A stretch of DNA of 41,650 nt from Bacteroidales bacterium. Its GTDB lineage: Bacteria; Bacteroidota; Bacteroidia; Bacteroidales; WCHB1-69. Positions 1 through 38,335 of this stretch are shown here, in pieces (the first letter of the stretch is position 1; each line of letters begins with the position of its first letter). The notes beneath the pieces are model-generated. The model ran no database searches and was not told the DNA's origin. It saw only the letters and a list, made by a program, of their open reading frames with translations. The translations under genes and the position numbers were made by a program. The stretch covers positions 1 through 41,650 of the forward strand of contig JAGCXN010000003.1 of NCBI GenBank assembly GCA_017961265.1. The letters are read 5' to 3'.

Positions 1-2310
1 GGCGTCGAGACGGATGATGAAGAAACCGAAATCGAGGCGCAGGCCTACTCCCGCGCCGAAACCGATTTCTTTGTAGAACCGTTTGAAACTGAATTCGGCG
101 TTGGGCATTTCCTCGTCCTTGTGGCTCAGCCAGATATTGCCAGCATCCACGAAAATTCCGTACTTGATGAACTTGTAGATGGTGCCGCGGTATTCCACGT
201 TCATCTCTAACTTGATGTCGCCAGTACGGATGTCGTGCTCAACCTCTTCCTCCGTAAAGTAGGAACCGGGGCCGAGGGAGCGGTAGTTCCATGCGCGCAT
301 ACTGTTGGAACCACCGAGGTAGAAGCTCTTCTCAAAAGGTAGCGTGGTGGCGTTCCACAGCGGAAGCCCGATGCCGAAATCGAAACGGGTAGCGACGGAG
401 TTGCCCTTGTTGATGGTGTAATAGTAGCGGAGGTCGATTTCCGCCCGCTCGTAATTACCGTAGGTGATTCCGCCGATGGTGTATTGGCCTTGGTCGTTTT
501 TCGGGGCTTTCACCAATGCGCAAATCGCACTGAGGAACATGCCCGACGATTCGGCACGGAGACGGGCGATGAAGGAGTTGCGCGGATTCTTCACCGGCTG
601 CGTGTAGGTGAGACCGTAATTGAACGAAAGCAGGAAGTTGTCTTGATATTTCTGACGGAAATCCTTGGAATAGAGAGACAGAACCTGATAGAACTCATCC
701 CCTTTCGGCGTAATATTGATGACAGAAAGGTCAATGGGGGCGATAGTATGGGTGAGATAACTCGTGTAAGCAAGGGAATAAACGATAGCTCCATTGTATA
801 ACCCTCTTTGATACAGTGAGTTGTTTTGAAAATGTGCACCGATCTTGATTTGCGTGCCATAGAAGTTGGCCTCGATTTTCTGTGTCTTTCGGAAGAAAAG
901 CAGACGGCGGAAATCCATAGAGATCTCGCCACCGACCTCCTCACTTTCGAGAATGAACTTCGCACTCTCCTCCGCCGTTTTTGACTTGATGTAGAAACCG
1001 AGACTTCCGTAAACATTAATGTTGAAATATTCTGCACTGCGGAAAAGATTGCGATTGGTGTAGGTAAGCGACAGACTCGCTTTGTCGCTGCGGGCCTCCA
1101 ATTGTGCCGCCAAAGAGTGCAACTTGTTACGCGACAGCCGATAGACTGTGTTCAAAAGTCCCGTTTTGTTGATGGTGTCGCGTCCGCTGACCGCTTCAAC
1201 AACGTCAATATCAATATAGTTGAAGTTTTTTAAACCATTCAGTTTGGAACGGGAACGGGAAATCAGAGACTGCGAATAAGGAAGACCGCTCTTACTTAAA
1301 ATATTATCTGTCAATATTCTGGGACGAATGTCCGCAATGGGCTTGTTTTTTCGGGTGGCGTTGGAGTCGGGAGGAGTGGTAATGATATAATAACGGGTGT
1401 CATCCTTGCGCTTGCGGTAGGTGATGCGTTCAGAACTCTGGTTGTAGTTGTGGGTGATGTTGTAGTTTGGATAGATATAGACGTTGTTGAAAAAGAATTT
1501 GTAGGCGTGCCGTTCGCGGATTTCTTTGTCCTTTATTTTTGAAAAATTAATTAAGATATTGATTCTCAATGTTTTATTGCCTTTGGCATCCAAATGCCTT
1601 TCTGAATTCAATGTGTCAATCTCGAAAGAGACGATGTCATTGGAAACGTAATAGTAGCCGTTGTCACGGATATGGTTCACGATACGGCTTTGTTCGTCAA
1701 GAAGATTGTCGGCATTGTATTGGTCCCCGACCTTGAAGAGGCGGTTTGCCGTATCCTTCAGAATAATGCGTTTGTATTCGAAAATATCAATGTAATACTT
1801 GATTTCGCGGATGTAGAAGGCTTCGTTGGCCGTGACGTGATAGGTGACTTCGGCCTTGTGTCGCCTCGGATGTAACTTGTTGGGATCCTTGTATTTGATT
1901 GTCGCATAAGACTCGGCGTTGAAGTAGCCGTATTTCTTCATTGCAATCCGGATCTGGTCGAGCGAGTAGGTGATAAGTGTGGTGTCCAACAGCACTGGCT
2001 CTTCACCGGCGGCACGCATCCTTTTCATCCATTTGGTGTCCTTGATGACGTTCCCCAACGAGTCGGTTTTGGGTAAGTTGTTTACATAACGACTTGTTTT
2101 TATGGGGAATACATCCAAAAATTTCTTGTTGGTGATGGGGCGTACCGTATAAATCAGATTGTCGAACTCAATCCCCTTCTTGTCTTCCACCTTCACCGTG
2201 TTTTTGGTGAGCATATACTCCCCGTCCTTCAGGTATTTGGAAGGGTTGCAGGCCGCAAGCAGCCATGCAAAGACCGAAAAAACAAGAAGTTGGACGAGGA
2301 AGCGTCGCAT
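1..2310 (-). CDS. tamL: TamL-type outer-membrane lipoprotein of the Omp85 superfamily (partial, C-terminus beyond window)
   Basis: An Omp85 outer-membrane barrel protein, likely a TamA-like assembly factor that helps insert proteins into the outer membrane. The visible 770 codons stay open to the window edge. The N-terminus is a lipoprotein signal with lipobox LLAAC (Cys21), the hallmark of the Bacteroidota variant TamL. POTRA-like sequence follows (about residues 25-330), then a barrel. Near residue 672 is GGSNSMRAW, the loop-6 arginine motif, and the last visible residues (GLRLDFGFFIIRLD) are a typical late barrel strand. Only the last strand or strands are missing. The start ATG lies 1 base after the lolA stop codon, so it is co-transcribed with rfbD and lolA. 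Family known; the precise substrate is inference. Confidence 0.9.
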   Translation of the reverse strand, partial: MRRFLVQLLVFSVFAWLLAACNPSKYLKDGEYMLTKNTVKVEDKKGIEFDNLIYTVRPITNKKFLDVFPIKTSRYVNNLPKTDSLGNVIKDTKWMKRMRAAGEEPVLLDTTLITYSLDQIRIAMKKYGYFNAESYATIKYKDPNKLHPRRHKAEVTYHVTANEAFYIREIKYYIDIFEYKRIILKDTANRLFKVGDQYNADNLLDEQSRIVNHIRDNGYYYVSNDIVSFEIDTLNSERHLDAKGNKTLRINILINFSKIKDKEIRERHAYKFFFNNVYIYPNYNITHNYNQSSERITYRKRKDDTRYYIITTPPDSNATRKNKPIADIRPRILTDNILSKSGLPYSQSLISRSRSKLNGLKNFNYIDIDVVEAVSGRDTINKTGLLNTVYRLSRNKLHSLAAQLEARSDKASLSLTYTNRNLFRSAEYFNINVYGSLGFYIKSKTAEESAKFILESEEVGGEISMDFRRLLFFRKTQKIEANFYGTQIKIGAHFQNNSLYQRGLYNGAIVYSLAYTSYLTHTIAPIDLSVINITPKGDEFYQVLSLYSKDFRQKYQDNFLLSFNYGLTYTQPVKNPRNSFIARLRAESSGMFLSAICALVKAPKNDQGQYTIGGITYGNYERAEIDLRYYYTINKGNSVATRFDFGIGLPLWNATTLPFEKSFYLGGSNSMRAWNYRSLGPGSYFTEEEVEHDIRTGDIKLEMNVEYRGTIYKFIKYGIFVDAGNIWLSHKDEEMPNAEFSFKRFYKEIGFGAGVGLRLDFGFFIIRLDA

Positions 2311-2311
2311 G

Positions 2312-2950
2312 TTATCTCATATCATTGGTTTCAACTCCGGGGTGCTTGGCTGCATCGAAAACGAACTGGCTGTCGTTGATAGCCGCGTTGCTGACAAACT
2401 TGTCAAAATAATAGGTATAGATGGTATTGTCCTTTTCATAAACAGCGCAGCGGACAATCTCTTTTTTATTCTTGTCAATAAAAAGACGGATTTTGTAATA
2501 GGATTGTCCTTTCTTTGGTGTCAAGTCAATGATTTGCAGGGATTTGCCTGCTTCTACTTCCTCTCGGATGAATTTGGCGGTATAATCCTTTTGCCAGTTT
2601 CCTAACATCTTGGCTGGATTGAGGATGTCATCGTCAGATTCGTCGTATGTGTAAACAGAAACTTCGTTGCTGCTTTTTTGGTAGTTCCACATCGTGGTAC
2701 CATCGCAGTAAAAAGTTTGGTCATCAAAGGTCATATAGTATTTTTTTCCTTTGATGGCGACTTTTCCCGTCAGTGTGGCGATAGTTTTCTTGTCCTTCAC
2801 CGCCTTGTACGTGTAGTCGATATTCATGGAGGTAAGTGCCTGATATTTTTTTGCAAGGGACTGCAAAATGGGGGTGGCTCCGCCATCAGTGTCTTGCGCC
2901 GCCAGTGTGCCACCAAATAGAAGGAGAATCAGGAAAATATAACGTTTCAT
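2312..2950 (-). CDS. lolA: LolA-like outer-membrane lipoprotein carrier
   Basis: Periplasmic chaperone of the LolA family, which carries lipoproteins from the inner to the outer membrane. 212 residues, close to the usual size. Residues 1-19 form a signal peptide ending in LAAQ. The rest has the family pattern of alternating hydrophobic strands, with the segment around FYCDGTTMWNYQ matching the LolA 'S/CDGxTxW' signature, and a lysine-rich exposed face. It lies 16 bases downstream of rfbD and 1 base upstream of tamL, an arrangement suggesting that lipoprotein delivery and the TamL lipoprotein are expressed together. LolA sequences diverge strongly in this phylum, so the call rests on length, signal and pattern. 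Confidence 0.82.
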   Translation of the reverse strand: MKRYIFLILLLFGGTLAAQDTDGGATPILQSLAKKYQALTSMNIDYTYKAVKDKKTIATLTGKVAIKGKKYYMTFDDQTFYCDGTTMWNYQKSSNEVSVYTYDESDDDILNPAKMLGNWQKDYTAKFIREEVEAGKSLQIIDLTPKKGQSYYKIRLFIDKNKKEIVRCAVYEKDNTIYTYYFDKFVSNAAINDSQFVFDAAKHPGVETNDMR

Positions 2951-33324: not shown

Positions 33325-36300
33325 TTAGAACGGATAGCCTATGCTGAAATTGAGGCGCAGACCATCCAGAACAGAAGGCATATTGTAATATTTGGTGATT
33401 GGCCGCGTGAAATCCGTCTTGCCCTCCTTGGTGTATTTGTAGGTCTGGTAAGGAGCGTGGATGCCTACCCCTAAGTCCAGGCGGATAACGAGTCCGTCGA
33501 TGTCGAGGCGGAGTCCCGCACCGGTACCAAGGGCAATCTGCTTCGCGATATTGGGATTTCCGATAATTCCGTTATGCAGTTCTTCAGTTATCCCCATTCT
33601 CTCGACAAGCAACGCATATTCTTCATCACTCATAAATTCGGAGACGTCATACCAGTTCCATACGTTGCCGGCATCGAGGAATACGGAGCCATAGAGTTTC
33701 CAAACGATGGGGAAGCGCAGTTCGAAGTTTGCTTCGAGTTTTATATCGCCGGCATGGAAAAAGTTCTGGTTGTATTTGGTGCTATGGAAATTTCCCGGTC
33801 CGTAGGCGTATGGGGCGGCCGCACGCAAACTGTTGGGGCCGCCGGCATAGAAGGATTCGGAAAGCGGAGCAGACTCATAGGAGTTGCCCATCGGCAGATT
33901 GGCGCCTGCATAGAGACGCGTGGCGATGCATACCTTATCCGTCAGGTTGAACCGATTCCACAGTTCGGCCGTCACCTTGACGAACTGGTCGAAGGGGATA
34001 TTGCCAATCTCTTTGTCGTGCTCACTCCACTTGTGCCTGAAGATGCAATAGATGGCGTTCGTCAGGTTGCCGGATTCTTTGACCTCGAAGTCAAACATGG
34101 TGTTGACTTTCCGCTGGGTGCGGTAGTCACTGTAGGTGATTCCATAGCCGATGGAGGGGACGAACTCGTTTCCTGAAAGCAGTTTGAGGAGTTCTGGATG
34201 GTCGATCGCTTCCCGAAGCACATCTTGTGACTCAGCCTTCACTCTGACTATTGAAAGAGAGGCGGGCGTGAAGACATGCGTGACATAACGAGACGAGTGG
34301 ATGAAATACGAGAAGGCTCCGTAGAGCTTGTGAATTCCGTATCCGCCTGCTATGTTCTCGTACTTGTATCCTATCCTGTAGCGGGTATCGCCGTCGGGGT
34401 TGTTGTTTCCCACCCAGTGCAGATACGGAAAGACAAATGCGGCATCCACACCGAATTTGTAGGTGTTGGTCATTTTCGGATCTCCCGGCTGTCGTTTGCG
34501 CAGCGACCAATAGTATGCCCCATAGCCCTTGACCGTGAATGTCTCTCCCCGCCCTAAAAGGTTCTTTATTGAATGGGCAAGGATAATGTTAGGACCGAGA
34601 CTATTGTTGGAACGATAGGCGACATCCGCCTCAGCCGAGAAATTGTGTATGCGTATGATAGAGTCGCCCAATGAAGGCGCGAACCGGTTGAGCCTCCATT
34701 GCTTGGTGGCCGCCACACCTATGCCGGACTTAGTGAGCTCGCCTTCAAAGATGTTGTCATAATCGCGTTGCGAAAACGAGCGCAGAAAAACATTGCCTGA
34801 TGGGGTCAGTTTGAAGTCTGCGGATATAAGGCTGAGCAATCCATTGGCCTTATTGACCTCCGGATTGTCGGAGATGGTGGAGCCGACCGTGATGCGCATT
34901 TTATCATGGAACAGGGACTTGCTGATGGCAATATTCATGTCATTGGTCTTGCCGGACGCATGGTTGGTCTGTCCACTGCTGATATCAATATCTATTTTAT
35001 TCCCTATCTTGGAATTGGCCATCGCGGCATTGATACGGCTGTTGATGATGCTGTTCAGGGCATATCCGCTCTTTTGCGCAGCCACATTGCTTTCACCCAT
35101 ATACATTCCGGTGGTGAGCAATACAGCCGCTATGCCTTCACGGTTGTCTTCATCCAAAGAAGCGAGTTCATGAGTGATGGTTTCGTCATCCGGCGCCTCA
35201 AGGAAGAAACCTATGGCGTTAAGACCTACCGAATCAAGTACACCAGTTACTCGTACGCCAGTATTGAAGACCACACGTCGTGTCTCTTCGCCTTCCGATT
35301 GCACATCGGCTTTCACCTGTTGCGATGCGGAGACGTTCAGCATCGTCTGCCCTAAGGGGCCGTTGAAGGTGACGTTACTTCCTGAATCCACATGGAAGGG
35401 TATCATGGGATATAAATTGGGCGAATAGCGGACCAATCCTTCGTCTATATTGATCTTTCCGCCCAAGTTAAGTTCCCCGTCAGCAGTACCATACTGCACG
35501 TTGACCGTACCGTGAGGTTTGACTTGAGCCAGATTCTTCTTGTCGATGGGATAGGTGAGATCGGTGGAGGGCAGAATCGTGACATCGACATCAGCGAGGA
35601 GACTGTCTATCGGCCCAGTCACCCGTCCGCGGATACCGGTTGACAATTCACCATAGACAGGGAAAGGTCCGTTTTTTTCCAGTTGCACCGGGGCGAAATT
35701 ATCCGCAGACAAATCCACATCCACCAGCATCGTATTGATATCCAGGCCTCCGTTCAGCGCCAGATAGGAACCATTGGTGCTAATGATGCGCACGTCGTTG
35801 AGCTTTACCTTGTTGTGCTCCATCACGATAGGCGTTTCGCTCAGACTCATTTTCACATCGTAGGGCTTGTAGTGGGCGGTTACATCCAGCGGTTTCACTT
35901 CGGCGGAAAGGTCCATTTCTGCAGGCAGACCGTCTGCGGAAGCTTTAACTCTCGCAAAACCGTCTATGTCGATATCTTCCATATCGAGAATGTTGTTCAC
36001 CAGTTCAAGCGGAATGTCGTCCAACCGCACATCCGCCCGGACGGCATGGTCGAACTGCTCAGATGGCGTGATTCGGATGTCCACCGTTTGATCTCCAAGA
36101 TCCAATTCATCGTAGATGAGACTGTCCAATGCAAGGTGTCCCGTTCCCTTCAGCTCGCGCCCGTTCCGTTCCAGATTCAGCTGCAGCGCAGCATCGGTGC
36201 AGATGTCACGTACATCCATCACGCCGTCGGTAATGCTGGTGTTGGCCGTGAGCGCGGCGGTGGTCCTGCCTTCCGTCATGCTCACCCGCATGGCCGCCGT

Positions 36301-38130
36301 AGCAGCGGGCAGGCGCAGTCCCGTACTGTCGTCCGCATAGTCGAGATAGGGGATAGAAGCGTCCAAGGCTAGGTCGGATTGGAGAGAATCAGACGTTAGC
36401 GATAGTGTCAACTCATTTATATCCAATCCGTTTCGCTCGATAATGGCCTGAATGGGACTACCTTCTGTAAGCTGTATATCCGCCTGCAGGTCGGGTATGA
36501 GCCGTCGGAGCGTGTCCAGCATCGTCAGGTCTTGTAGCGAAGTAATGGACTGGAGAAACGTCGTATCTGCAACAAGATCCAGCAGCGGTTGCAAAGTATC
36601 AACCAGTTGAAGTGCCTGCATCGGGCTTTGTGCATCGATGACAAGTCCCTGTGTAGCAAAGTGCAACGATGTTGTGGAATCTGTGGTGAAGTCAAGGTTC
36701 AGAGAGTCGATATCAAAATTCTCACCCGCCACGTAGGCCACCACATTCTTCATCTGCGTATGGTAGTCCACAGTCATCTGTTCGGGTGTGAAAAAGTCTG
36801 ATACGCAGAACTGATGCTCCGTTTCCGCCTTCAAGCGCAGGTCGTTGTCCGTCATTTTAATCGGCAAATGCAGGATTCCTGTCGCGGTATTATTGGCCAG
36901 TTCGGCGTCGAGAATCAGGCCGGAAGCATTGATCTGATTATAGATGCAGTCGGTCAGGTTCATGGAGACTTTGCATCTCATCGCAGGCGAATGGGGATCC
37001 AGACCCTTTCCCTTCGCGTGTATTTCGCCGGCCAATACTGCGTGGACACTGTCTTGGATGAAAGGGCTCAGGTTCACTTGCATAACATTCGCCTGCATGT
37101 CATACACCTCATCATCAATATCATAGAAACCTTTCAAGTTCGCCTTATTGCCTTGATAATCGGCAATGCCAGACAAGTCCACCCGCATGGTCCCCAGATT
37201 CATCGTCGTGGCCTTCAAATTTGCTTTCGCTCCAAAGGCGTCGGAACGGACGTATAATCGGTTGGATGTAATCGAATCTGTGTTCAGATCCAACCGGGCG
37301 TCTCCATAAATCGTATCAAACGGTAGGTACAGGTCCTCGAGTGTAAGCGAAGACTCCCCGATATTCAGGCGGCGTGCATCGTAGATGTTGCCCCCGACAT
37401 CCGCCAGCACATTTGTGGACAGGGAGCGGGCGCGCAGATCCAGTCCCAAAGGATTGAGCACGAACCGCACATTGCGGAGCTCGCCATCCAGTATGTCGAA
37501 AGCCATCGGTGTGGAGGTGGTGTCCTCCTCAGTTTCCTCCTCGGTGTCGCGCAGTTCAATACCCACGTATGTATCCGCCAGTTGCAAGCCGTGCAGTGGA
37601 TAGTGCCCTTTCGCGATGTTGAGCCCCGGACTCGTTGTAAACAGATGCCTTCCGATAACGTCGATACCCACAGCGTCGATCAGGGTGTCGGAATGGACAG
37701 TCGCTTGCTCTAACAGCAGTTGGTCCACCACGATAGTGCGGGCCAGAAAATCATCGTTCGGTACGCCATCCCCAGGTTTTTCCAGGCAGCCTTCCAGACG
37801 CAAAGTATGCACGTATAGCAGCGTGTCTTTCCCGCGGTGACCGATAAAAAGACTGTCGATTTCGATACGCAGCGGCAGGTCTTTTTCGCCCTTGTAAGCG
37901 TGATAGAGAATCATCGGAGAATGATAGAAAGGGGAGAGGTAGAGCCGTCCCAGATCCACATCCAGGTCGGTCCGCTTATTGACTTCTTTCACGCATCTTT
38001 GCAGGACAGCCGACCGAGCCCCGGGCGTCACCAGAATAACCGTTACCGTATTCAATAGCAACAGTTCAATCCCCAAGATGACACCGAGAATGAAGCATGG
38101 TATTTCCCAAATCAGTCTCTTTTTGCTCAC
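33325..38130 (-). CDS. TamB-Omp85 fusion: TamB/DUF490 periplasmic protein joined to a TamA/BamA-type barrel
   Basis: 1601 residues in one open frame, start GTG at 38130 behind a purine-rich AAGGAAA. Residues 8-36 form an inner-membrane anchor, as in TamB. Residues about 40-850 are long, Asp/Thr-rich beta repeats with alternating hydrophobics (AsmA/TamB-like groove). Residues about 860-1146 match the TamB C-terminal DUF490 pattern: TDLTYPI, GELNLGGKINIDEGLVRYSP, FNGPLGQTMLNVSASQQV, and the late GIAAVLLTTGMYMGE segment. From about 1158 to 1601 the chain is an Omp85 barrel: NNSLGPNIILAHSIKNLLGRGE, loop-6 motif GGPNSLRAAAPYAYGPGNF (Arg1436), GDIKLEANFELRF, SVFLDAGNVWNW, GAGLRLDIDGLVIRLDLG and terminal LRLNFSIGYPF. 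No POTRA repeats are present. The barrel is clearly related to TamL at 1-2310. It would span both membranes and replaces the usual TamA-TamB pair by one chain. Promoter at 38236-38244. Confidence 0.9.
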   Translation of the reverse strand: MSKKRLIWEIPCFILGVILGIELLLLNTVTVILVTPGARSAVLQRCVKEVNKRTDLDVDLGRLYLSPFYHSPMILYHAYKGEKDLPLRIEIDSLFIGHRGKDTLLYVHTLRLEGCLEKPGDGVPNDDFLARTIVVDQLLLEQATVHSDTLIDAVGIDVIGRHLFTTSPGLNIAKGHYPLHGLQLADTYVGIELRDTEEETEEDTTSTPMAFDILDGELRNVRFVLNPLGLDLRARSLSTNVLADVGGNIYDARRLNIGESSLTLEDLYLPFDTIYGDARLDLNTDSITSNRLYVRSDAFGAKANLKATTMNLGTMRVDLSGIADYQGNKANLKGFYDIDDEVYDMQANVMQVNLSPFIQDSVHAVLAGEIHAKGKGLDPHSPAMRCKVSMNLTDCIYNQINASGLILDAELANNTATGILHLPIKMTDNDLRLKAETEHQFCVSDFFTPEQMTVDYHTQMKNVVAYVAGENFDIDSLNLDFTTDSTTSLHFATQGLVIDAQSPMQALQLVDTLQPLLDLVADTTFLQSITSLQDLTMLDTLRRLIPDLQADIQLTEGSPIQAIIERNGLDINELTLSLTSDSLQSDLALDASIPYLDYADDSTGLRLPAATAAMRVSMTEGRTTAALTANTSITDGVMDVRDICTDAALQLNLERNGRELKGTGHLALDSLIYDELDLGDQTVDIRITPSEQFDHAVRADVRLDDIPLELVNNILDMEDIDIDGFARVKASADGLPAEMDLSAEVKPLDVTAHYKPYDVKMSLSETPIVMEHNKVKLNDVRIISTNGSYLALNGGLDINTMLVDVDLSADNFAPVQLEKNGPFPVYGELSTGIRGRVTGPIDSLLADVDVTILPSTDLTYPIDKKNLAQVKPHGTVNVQYGTADGELNLGGKINIDEGLVRYSPNLYPMIPFHVDSGSNVTFNGPLGQTMLNVSASQQVKADVQSEGEETRRVVFNTGVRVTGVLDSVGLNAIGFFLEAPDDETITHELASLDEDNREGIAAVLLTTGMYMGESNVAAQKSGYALNSIINSRINAAMANSKIGNKIDIDISSGQTNHASGKTNDMNIAISKSLFHDKMRITVGSTISDNPEVNKANGLLSLISADFKLTPSGNVFLRSFSQRDYDNIFEGELTKSGIGVAATKQWRLNRFAPSLGDSIIRIHNFSAEADVAYRSNNSLGPNIILAHSIKNLLGRGETFTVKGYGAYYWSLRKRQPGDPKMTNTYKFGVDAAFVFPYLHWVGNNNPDGDTRYRIGYKYENIAGGYGIHKLYGAFSYFIHSSRYVTHVFTPASLSIVRVKAESQDVLREAIDHPELLKLLSGNEFVPSIGYGITYSDYRTQRKVNTMFDFEVKESGNLTNAIYCIFRHKWSEHDKEIGNIPFDQFVKVTAELWNRFNLTDKVCIATRLYAGANLPMGNSYESAPLSESFYAGGPNSLRAAAPYAYGPGNFHSTKYNQNFFHAGDIKLEANFELRFPIVWKLYGSVFLDAGNVWNWYDVSEFMSDEEYALLVERMGITEELHNGIIGNPNIAKQIALGTGAGLRLDIDGLVIRLDLGVGIHAPYQTYKYTKEGKTDFTRPITKYYNMPSVLDGLRLNFSIGYPF

Positions 38131-38235
38131 GCTTTGCCCGTTTCCTTAAATTGTGCTCCAGTGGTAACTACAAATTTCGACTGTTTGATTCGTAAAATCC
38201 TAGAACACAACACTATTGCCAAATTCAAAATTTCT

Positions 38236-38244
38236 GCAAAAATA
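38236..38244 (-). promoter_or_regulatory. -7 promoter element (TATTTTTGC) for the TamB-Omp85 gene
   Basis: GCAAAAATA on the plus strand, 106 bases upstream of the GTG start, divergent from the cupin promoter at 38336. Confidence 0.65.
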
Positions 38245-38335
38245 CTCGCTTTTTTTGAAATAAACAAATCCTGCTTTCACGTCAAACGTCATCTACGTAC
38301 GGGATTTCTTGCATCCTCATTAATGGAAAATGTCT

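Follow-up and report, generated by a model that had tools for sequence, protein, structure and literature searches.

A fused TamB2-TamL2 gene in Bacteroidales and its predicted built-in hybrid barrel

TAM of Escherichia coli is made of two chains, and the locus described here raises the question of how the TamB and the Omp85 parts of such a machine can be held in one protein, from which genes this protein arose, and what the join implies for its working. The locus lies in a stretch of 41,650 nucleotides of Bacteroidales DNA (the window), in which the sequence-only reading had reported a single uninterrupted frame of 1601 residues carrying both TamB and Omp85. This frame is confirmed at 33325-38130, and its strand is corrected to minus, many stops being present across 33325-38130 when it is read on the plus strand. 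The gene starts with GTG at 38130 and stops at 33325-33327; its product comprises a TamB half up to residue 1145, a linker of 18 residues and then a full TamL-type Omp85 barrel. Upstream of the GTG start, the element TATTTTTG (window 38131-38260, minus strand) resembles the consensus of the Bacteroidota -7 box. The features, all on the minus strand, are as follows.

33325-38130, minus: fused TamB2-TamL2 gene, 1601 codons and stop
38035..38091, minus: membrane anchor, about residues 14-32 (hydropathy; basic residues precede)
35551..38064, minus: TamB2-type periplasmic region, about residues 23-860 (profile-profile match)
34762..35541, minus: TamB/DUF490 domain, Pfam PF04357, residues 864-1123 (Pfam profile)
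34678..34998, minus: TamB C-terminal OMP-like ('pseudosubstrate') domain, residues 1045-1151 (AlphaFold2, TamB2 alignment)
34642..34695, minus: junction linker, residues 1146-1163, 18 amino acids (alignment of 37 fusions)
33328..34641, minus: TamL2-type Omp85 barrel, residues 1164-1601 (NF052279, Pfam, tree, AlphaFold2)
33823..33843, minus: loop-6 motif GGPNSLR, residues 1430-1436 (motif comparison)
1..2313, minus: canonical separate TamL, 771-residue frame cut by the window's start (tree, POTRA)

The TamB half and the barrel half

The N-terminal membrane anchor proposed earlier is supported by a hydrophobic segment in all 37 fusions compared. The best 19-residue hydropathy of the window fusion is 2.33 at residue 14; the value is at least 2.23 in 37/37 fusions as compared to at most 1.65 past residue 130, and at least one K or R directly precedes the segment in each of them. 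An uncleaved inner-membrane signal anchor is listed among the features of TamB (PMC4494059). Profile-profile comparison of residues 1-860 with TamB2 yielded a probability of 100 and an E-value of 3e-39 over 801 collinear columns, as against probabilities of 80 for canonical TamB, 5.1 for reversed TamB2 and 0.5 for TamL2. Over residues ~23-860, the periplasmic region lacks about 350 profile positions relative to TamB2, and the TamB half, measured to the last strand, is ~410-490 residues shorter than the TamB2 of G038, G025 and G030. Residues 402-1601 were modelled with AlphaFold2 from a 75-row alignment (mean pLDDT 77.5, pTM 0.45); the model is strand-rich, and the profile of the body is collinear with TamB2.

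Pfam PF04357 was recorded with 55.7 bits, against a gathering score of 22.4, when residues 811-1147 were scanned alone, and with 55.1 bits in the genome search; it was missed when the whole protein or residues 1-1147 were scanned. The match above the gathering score at residues 864-1123 confirms the DUF490-like region placed earlier at ~860-1146. The C-terminal OMP-like domain is homologous to the ends of TamB2, as evident from the alignment, and six strands are predicted by AlphaFold2 in residues 1045-1151, the first three with low confidence. W1145, which ends the last TamB strand, is invariant in 37/37 fusions. A profile search of solved structures returned no TamB structure at E 1; it returned BamA/TamA-type barrels over the barrel part, with a best E-value of 9.9e-8.

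In the barrel half, Pfam Omp85 was detected at residues 1382-1598 (E 2e-14), and the NCBIfam TamL profile NF052279 aligns at residues 1162-1601 to its positions 336-747 of 747 (E 2.5e-91, 307.3 bits). The match from position 336 up to the profile end shows that the barrel is complete and that the preceding part of TamL is missing. Three further fusions match NF052279 only from position 334-335, and the cut-off of 400 bits is missed by the 4/4 fusions scanned (304-316 bits); two separate TamL controls scored 697 and 771 bits over positions 2 to 747. Sixteen barrel strands of at least 8 residues and three shorter ones are predicted by AlphaFold2, with strand 1 beginning at residue 1156. The complete barrel, loop-6 Arg motif and terminal aromatic residue claimed from the sequence are thus confirmed: NF052279 is matched to position 747, the GGxNSxR motif occurs in 36/37 fusions (absent from L050), and the final F in 36/37, the exception, L049, running off its contig.

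The loop-6 region differs in detail between the groups. In the window (33787-33843, minus strand, residues 1430-1448), it reads RAxxPYAYGPG in the four fusions compared, while five of the six compared TamL2 carry a second R (RAFxxRxxGPG) and G025 has N at this place; the fusions have a Y-A-Y context. No lipobox was found by a simple pattern in the first 60 residues of the window fusion, and the pattern occurs in 2/37 fusions (L048 and G345) as compared to 15/20 TamL2.

Distribution and selection

When one genome was scanned for each species, 41 loci were obtained: 40 fusions and a separate TamL, L074. Thirty-three of the 40 are full-length, including L049, which was counted so though two residues short at its contig end; contig ends truncate a further six, and the frame of L071 is broken. 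The full-length fusions are 57-88% identical to the window fusion. Across the window's family the fusion is present in 24 of 104 genomes and 4 of 17 genera, as 20 full-length frames, three contig-end pieces and one broken frame. There is overlap between this sample and the named 40-locus set, and the two counts are not additive. In the window's genus, 3/13 genomes are carriers. An order-wide draw of 393 genomes contained at least five carriers, the window included, with at least two from the window's family; among other families of the order, the fusion was found in at least two genomes of family f101 and at least one of family f41. Of 395 genomes drawn across the phylum, six were matched at E 1e-40, and all six belong to the window's order; no fusion was found outside the order at this threshold, and among the six matched genomes the window alone carries a fused form. 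A ruminant host or stomach compartment is named in the titles of 17/40 fusion loci. The fusion of 40/40 named loci, along with its presence in 24/104 family genomes, excludes that the two parts are always separate genes in the relatives.

The whole-gene dN/dS, calculated with a counting script written for this analysis, is 0.09-0.20 in 8/8 fusion pairs, some dS values being above 1 (L062/L064). The TamB C-terminal domain displays the lowest ratio of the four large regions (0-0.08) in 7/7 computable pairs, one of the eight pairs giving no value for this domain. The fusion gene is kept under purifying selection.

An error of assembly or sequencing, or a gene in decay, could be suspected from the broken frame of one locus in 40 (L071, near residue 989) and from the titles of the named carriers, which describe metagenome assemblies. 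This explanation was rejected and is scarcely credible: the junction lies within one frame in 40/40 fusion loci (in L056 as far as ~residue 1174), identity goes down to 57% at a dN/dS of 0.09-0.20, and among the carriers are assemblies with a listed completeness of 99% in ~8 and ~20 contigs.

Several irregular loci were recorded besides. The break in L071 (G077:C64) falls near residue 989, at a distance from the junction, and leaves two frames. G079 holds two full copies on different contigs, and at G044:C30:2512-2982 (in L099; also in L057) a partial extra copy covering residues 37-192 directly precedes, on the upstream side, a full copy. In the pairs L036/L063 and L039/L060, the N-terminal 500 and 800 residues, respectively, are 76-94% identical in 100-residue blocks and the rest 96-100%, a step which reflects either intragenic recombination or chimaeric metagenome assembly.

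Relation to TamB2-TamL2 pairs

The origin of the two halves was analysed with labels given by gene neighbourhood, 'canonical' being used for TamL/TamB matches without a TamB2-TamL2-type neighbour. Twenty TamB2-TamL2 pairs from other families of the order were chosen among the matches listed; for 19 of them the criterion was a pair of nearby matches, one to each half, and for G189 a match to TamL only. This set is not an estimate of frequency. The genes of the chosen pairs are same-strand neighbours in 20/20, separated by at most 36 bases in 17, and in 13/20 the earliest start available to TamL2 overlaps with the end of TamB2. The same arrangement is described for TamB2-TamL2 of Flavobacterium johnsoniae (Fjoh_1899-Fjoh_1900; PMC12045153), and the present pairs are equated with those genes by their arrangement.

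The barrel tree comprises 62 sequences: 15 fusions, selected among the 37 so as to cover their spread, 26 canonical TamL, 20 TamL2 and one BamA. The fusions form one clade (100/100) that falls outside the canonical TamL clade (100/99), and an AU test, carried out on this tree only, rejects the grouping of the fusions with canonical TamL (p 0.000116). The TamB tree, of 41 C-terminal parts (15 fusions, 20 TamB2 and six canonical), again unites the fusions in a single clade (100/100), which a branch of 100/99 leaves on the side of TamB2. In each of the two trees, the TamB2/TamL2 pairs G038, G030 and G025 are nearer to the canonical proteins. Long-branch warnings apply to both trees, with fusion stems of 1.73 and 2.77 changes per column; owing to this long stem, the exact sister of the fusions within the TamB2/TamL2 group is unsure.

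Both trees and the profile comparison thereby indicate that the fusion derives from a TamB2-TamL2 pair and not from canonical TamB and TamL; the parents named earlier, TamA and TamB, are corrected to TamB2 and TamL2. A fusion of canonical TamB and TamL was rejected on the two trees, the profile comparison and the AU test of the barrel tree. The fusion shares with TamB2-TamL2 pairs the two proteins and their order, and trees and profiles place both its halves with these pairs. It differs in being one chain without POTRAs, whereas the pair has two genes, the second encoding a lipoprotein with POTRAs. Canonical TamB and TamL of Bacteroidota belong to the same superfamilies as the halves of the fusion, but they lie on the other branch of both trees, are encoded by separate genes and have POTRA in TamL.

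The same genome also encodes a canonical TamB, as a separate frame of 1557 residues on another contig (148 bits), besides the canonical TamL at the window's start. Since both are present as separate proteins, the fusion is an extra module of TAM2 type. A TamL2 query at E 1e-40 matched 58/104 family genomes, many of the rows being fusions; no separate TamL2 was found in the family among the four separate frames checked (L170-L173), all of which are canonical TamL. Two other Omp85 proteins were observed in the window's own genome: a frame of 1168 residues (L118:4268-7771, C14), which has WD40-like repeats (PD40), matches Omp85 with 31.5 bits and is probably of the known WD40-Omp85 class, and a 487-residue Omp85 protein without a POTRA match (L117:1903-3363, C11), like the published noNterm class.

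The junction and the predicted hybrid barrel

The distance from the invariant W to residue 1163 in the 37 full-length fusions is 8 residues in 3, 16 in 7, 18 in 25, 19 in 1 and 28 in 1. A POTRA has about 75-80 residues, and cannot therefore fit at a junction of 8-28 residues. Pfam POTRA was not reported in the fusion, either in the whole protein or in scans of sub-regions, while it was detected with 30.6 bits in the separate TamL of the same genome, and the AlphaFold2 model has no helix of at least 4 residues between 1039 and 1217. A hidden junction POTRA was accordingly rejected on these three grounds, and the absence of POTRA between the halves, as first read, is confirmed by the short gap in 37/37 fusions and by the Pfam scans. 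In one alignment the last POTRA of TamL2 is set opposite the last TamB strand, and some of the BLAST matches extend beyond the barrel start; both were taken as chance. Alignment with the separate proteins places the last OMP-like strand GELTKSGIGVAATKQW of the fusion with GEITQTGIGFLYRKQL of TamB2, and the resuming barrel strand 1, SAEADVAYRSNNSLGP, with VEANVASKSNSYLGP of TamL2; the TamB2 tail and the signal peptide, lipobox and POTRAs of TamL2 are dropped at the junction.

The variable length and poor conservation of the linker would also be expected if the single chain were cut there and then worked as an ordinary two-part complex. This is very improbable, as no conserved linker motif is visible by eye, and a barrel freed without POTRAs or lipobox would be left with strand pairing as its sole means of docking.

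At the seam, AlphaFold2 predicts a strand at 1130-1151, a turn of four residues and a strand at 1156-1173, a result that concerns secondary structure only. The confidence is 74-88 in ten-residue blocks from 1132 through the hairpin and 52 in the block before; it is 41-69 across the first three TamB strands. In the cryo-EM study of E. coli TamAB, the last strand of TamB pairs with strand 1 of TamA and the TamB strands lie inside the barrel; residue pairs 267/1258 and 269/1256 were crosslinked at the seam (PMC12800296). The equal sums of these pairs (267+1258, 269+1256) were read as a sign of antiparallel pairing, in which the TamB end is next to the beginning of strand 1. If these two ends were joined by a short loop, a hairpin would result, which is apparently what the fusion encodes; the same contact that is made between two chains in E. 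coli would become a hairpin in the fusion. By analogy, the join seems to lie near the presumed docking site of the separate proteins. The earlier proposal that the DUF490 end takes the place of the docking POTRA is upheld in so far as the POTRA is gone, and is modified in that the join also sits at the seam between the last TamB strand and barrel strand 1.

In the mechanism proposed, the anchor would stay in the inner membrane and the beta-taco of TamB would span the periplasm, while BAM would fold the barrel part into the outer membrane. The last TamB strand and barrel strand 1 would form the hairpin, and the reversible hybrid barrel of ordinary TAM would become a built-in barrel of ~22 strands, six from TamB and sixteen from the barrel. 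In E. coli TAM the POTRAs keep TamB attached to the barrel; in the fusion they would become dispensable, and the lipid anchor redundant. The model thus predicts, tentatively and with slightly more doubt than confidence, a single chain that crosses the envelope, with TamB strands as permanent staves of a ~22-strand barrel, i.e. a TAM locked in the hybrid state with its POTRAs dropped. The low confidence of the first three TamB strands lowers the probability of this reading and, together with the pTM of 0.45, makes the count of 22 strands insecure.

Hybrid barrels have been put forward for related systems. For the separate Bacteroidota pair, a 22-stranded TamL-TamB hybrid is predicted in section 12 of PMC12045153, where the last strand of TamL, and not the first, is named as the partner of TamB. 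The BamA-TamB hybrid of Borrelia, modelled with AlphaFold3 (PMC13382580), is alike in that six C-terminal strands of TamB complete an Omp85 barrel, but it consists of two chains and its BamA has five POTRAs. E. coli TamAB is likewise made of two chains, and differs from the fusion further in that a non-hybrid state coexists with the hybrid and the POTRAs contact TamB (PMC12800296). The barrel without POTRA is shared with the WD40, patatin, metallo and noNterm subfamilies of Omp85 (Heinz and Lithgow 2014, PMC4104836); none of the ten subfamilies in section 10 of that paper has a TamB, unlike the fusion.

The permanent bridge from inner to outer membrane and its cargo of lipids or barrel proteins, as envisaged in the earlier reading, are conjectural. 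Because the strand 1 position would be occupied by TamB's own strand, a fixed conduit appears likelier than an insertase, which needs strand 1 free for its client barrels. It is thus judged somewhat probable that the fusion is a one-piece TAM derived from TamB2-TamL2, with the hybrid barrel built in and the protein locked in the hybrid state or inclined towards it, and that it acts as a fixed hydrophobic conduit rather than an insertase; the cargo would be phospholipid or another hydrophobic substance. Against a conduit, the linker of 8-28 residues could let the TamB strand swing off. Against a lipid role of the canonical TamL stands its depletion in F. johnsoniae, in which the main outer-membrane lipids were not significantly changed (PMC12045153, section 15). 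In PMC11341756 it is described as unclear whether the TamB C-terminus departs from the barrel while lipid is transported, or is attached there only in the intervals of OMP assembly, from one stage to the next.

The fusion could instead be a cycling OMP insertase, in which the TamB strand peels off within reach of the linker, clients replace it and the tether speeds re-docking. The completeness of the barrel with its loop-6 motif and the variable length of the linker (8-28 residues) agree with this, as do the coexisting hybrid and non-hybrid states in E. coli (PMC12800296) and the assembly of OMPs by TAM in vitro (PMC11341756). However, in 3/37 fusions just 8 residues separate W and strand 1, which leaves little room. 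In the OMP-assembly model, moreover, the TamB C-terminus is released from strand 1 and POTRA movement is proposed to release TamB (PMC11341756), and these POTRAs are absent from the fusion. A cycling insertase is hence considered unlikely, though it deserves attention. A strut or tether between the two membranes, in which the barrel serves as an anchor and nothing is transported, would accord with the loss of POTRAs and lipobox along with the retention of the N-terminal anchor and barrel, and with the accessory nature of the gene (3/13 genomes of the genus). It is improbable nonetheless, since a strut should need neither the TamB C-terminal domain, the most constrained region in 7/7 pairs (dN/dS 0-0.08), nor the TamB2-like body, which is retained over ~800 columns.

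The fixed conduit in a one-piece TAM is thus the preferred reading. A TamB-Omp85 fusion was found undescribed among the matches listed in a search of the open-licence literature, with subscription papers and preprints outside its scope, and the words 'fusion' and 'fused' are absent from the main texts of the papers on TAM evolution and on TamL. The earlier statement that no such fusion had been described hence agrees with what was found in the open-licence literature, covered mostly as titles and the openings of abstracts.

The fusion family has the appearance of a natural experiment, in which the join falls close to the seam, the POTRAs are discarded and the product is kept under selection. 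The coupling of the machine, which is still debated, seems to have been made permanent in this family. If the protein is functional, a TAM locked in the hybrid state would suffice for at least one task, the cycling of TamB off the barrel would be unnecessary for the job of the fusion protein, and the roles of TAM in lipid transport and in OMP assembly could be separated with a single gene. The fusion also offers a one-chain construct for structural study of a transenvelope conduit.
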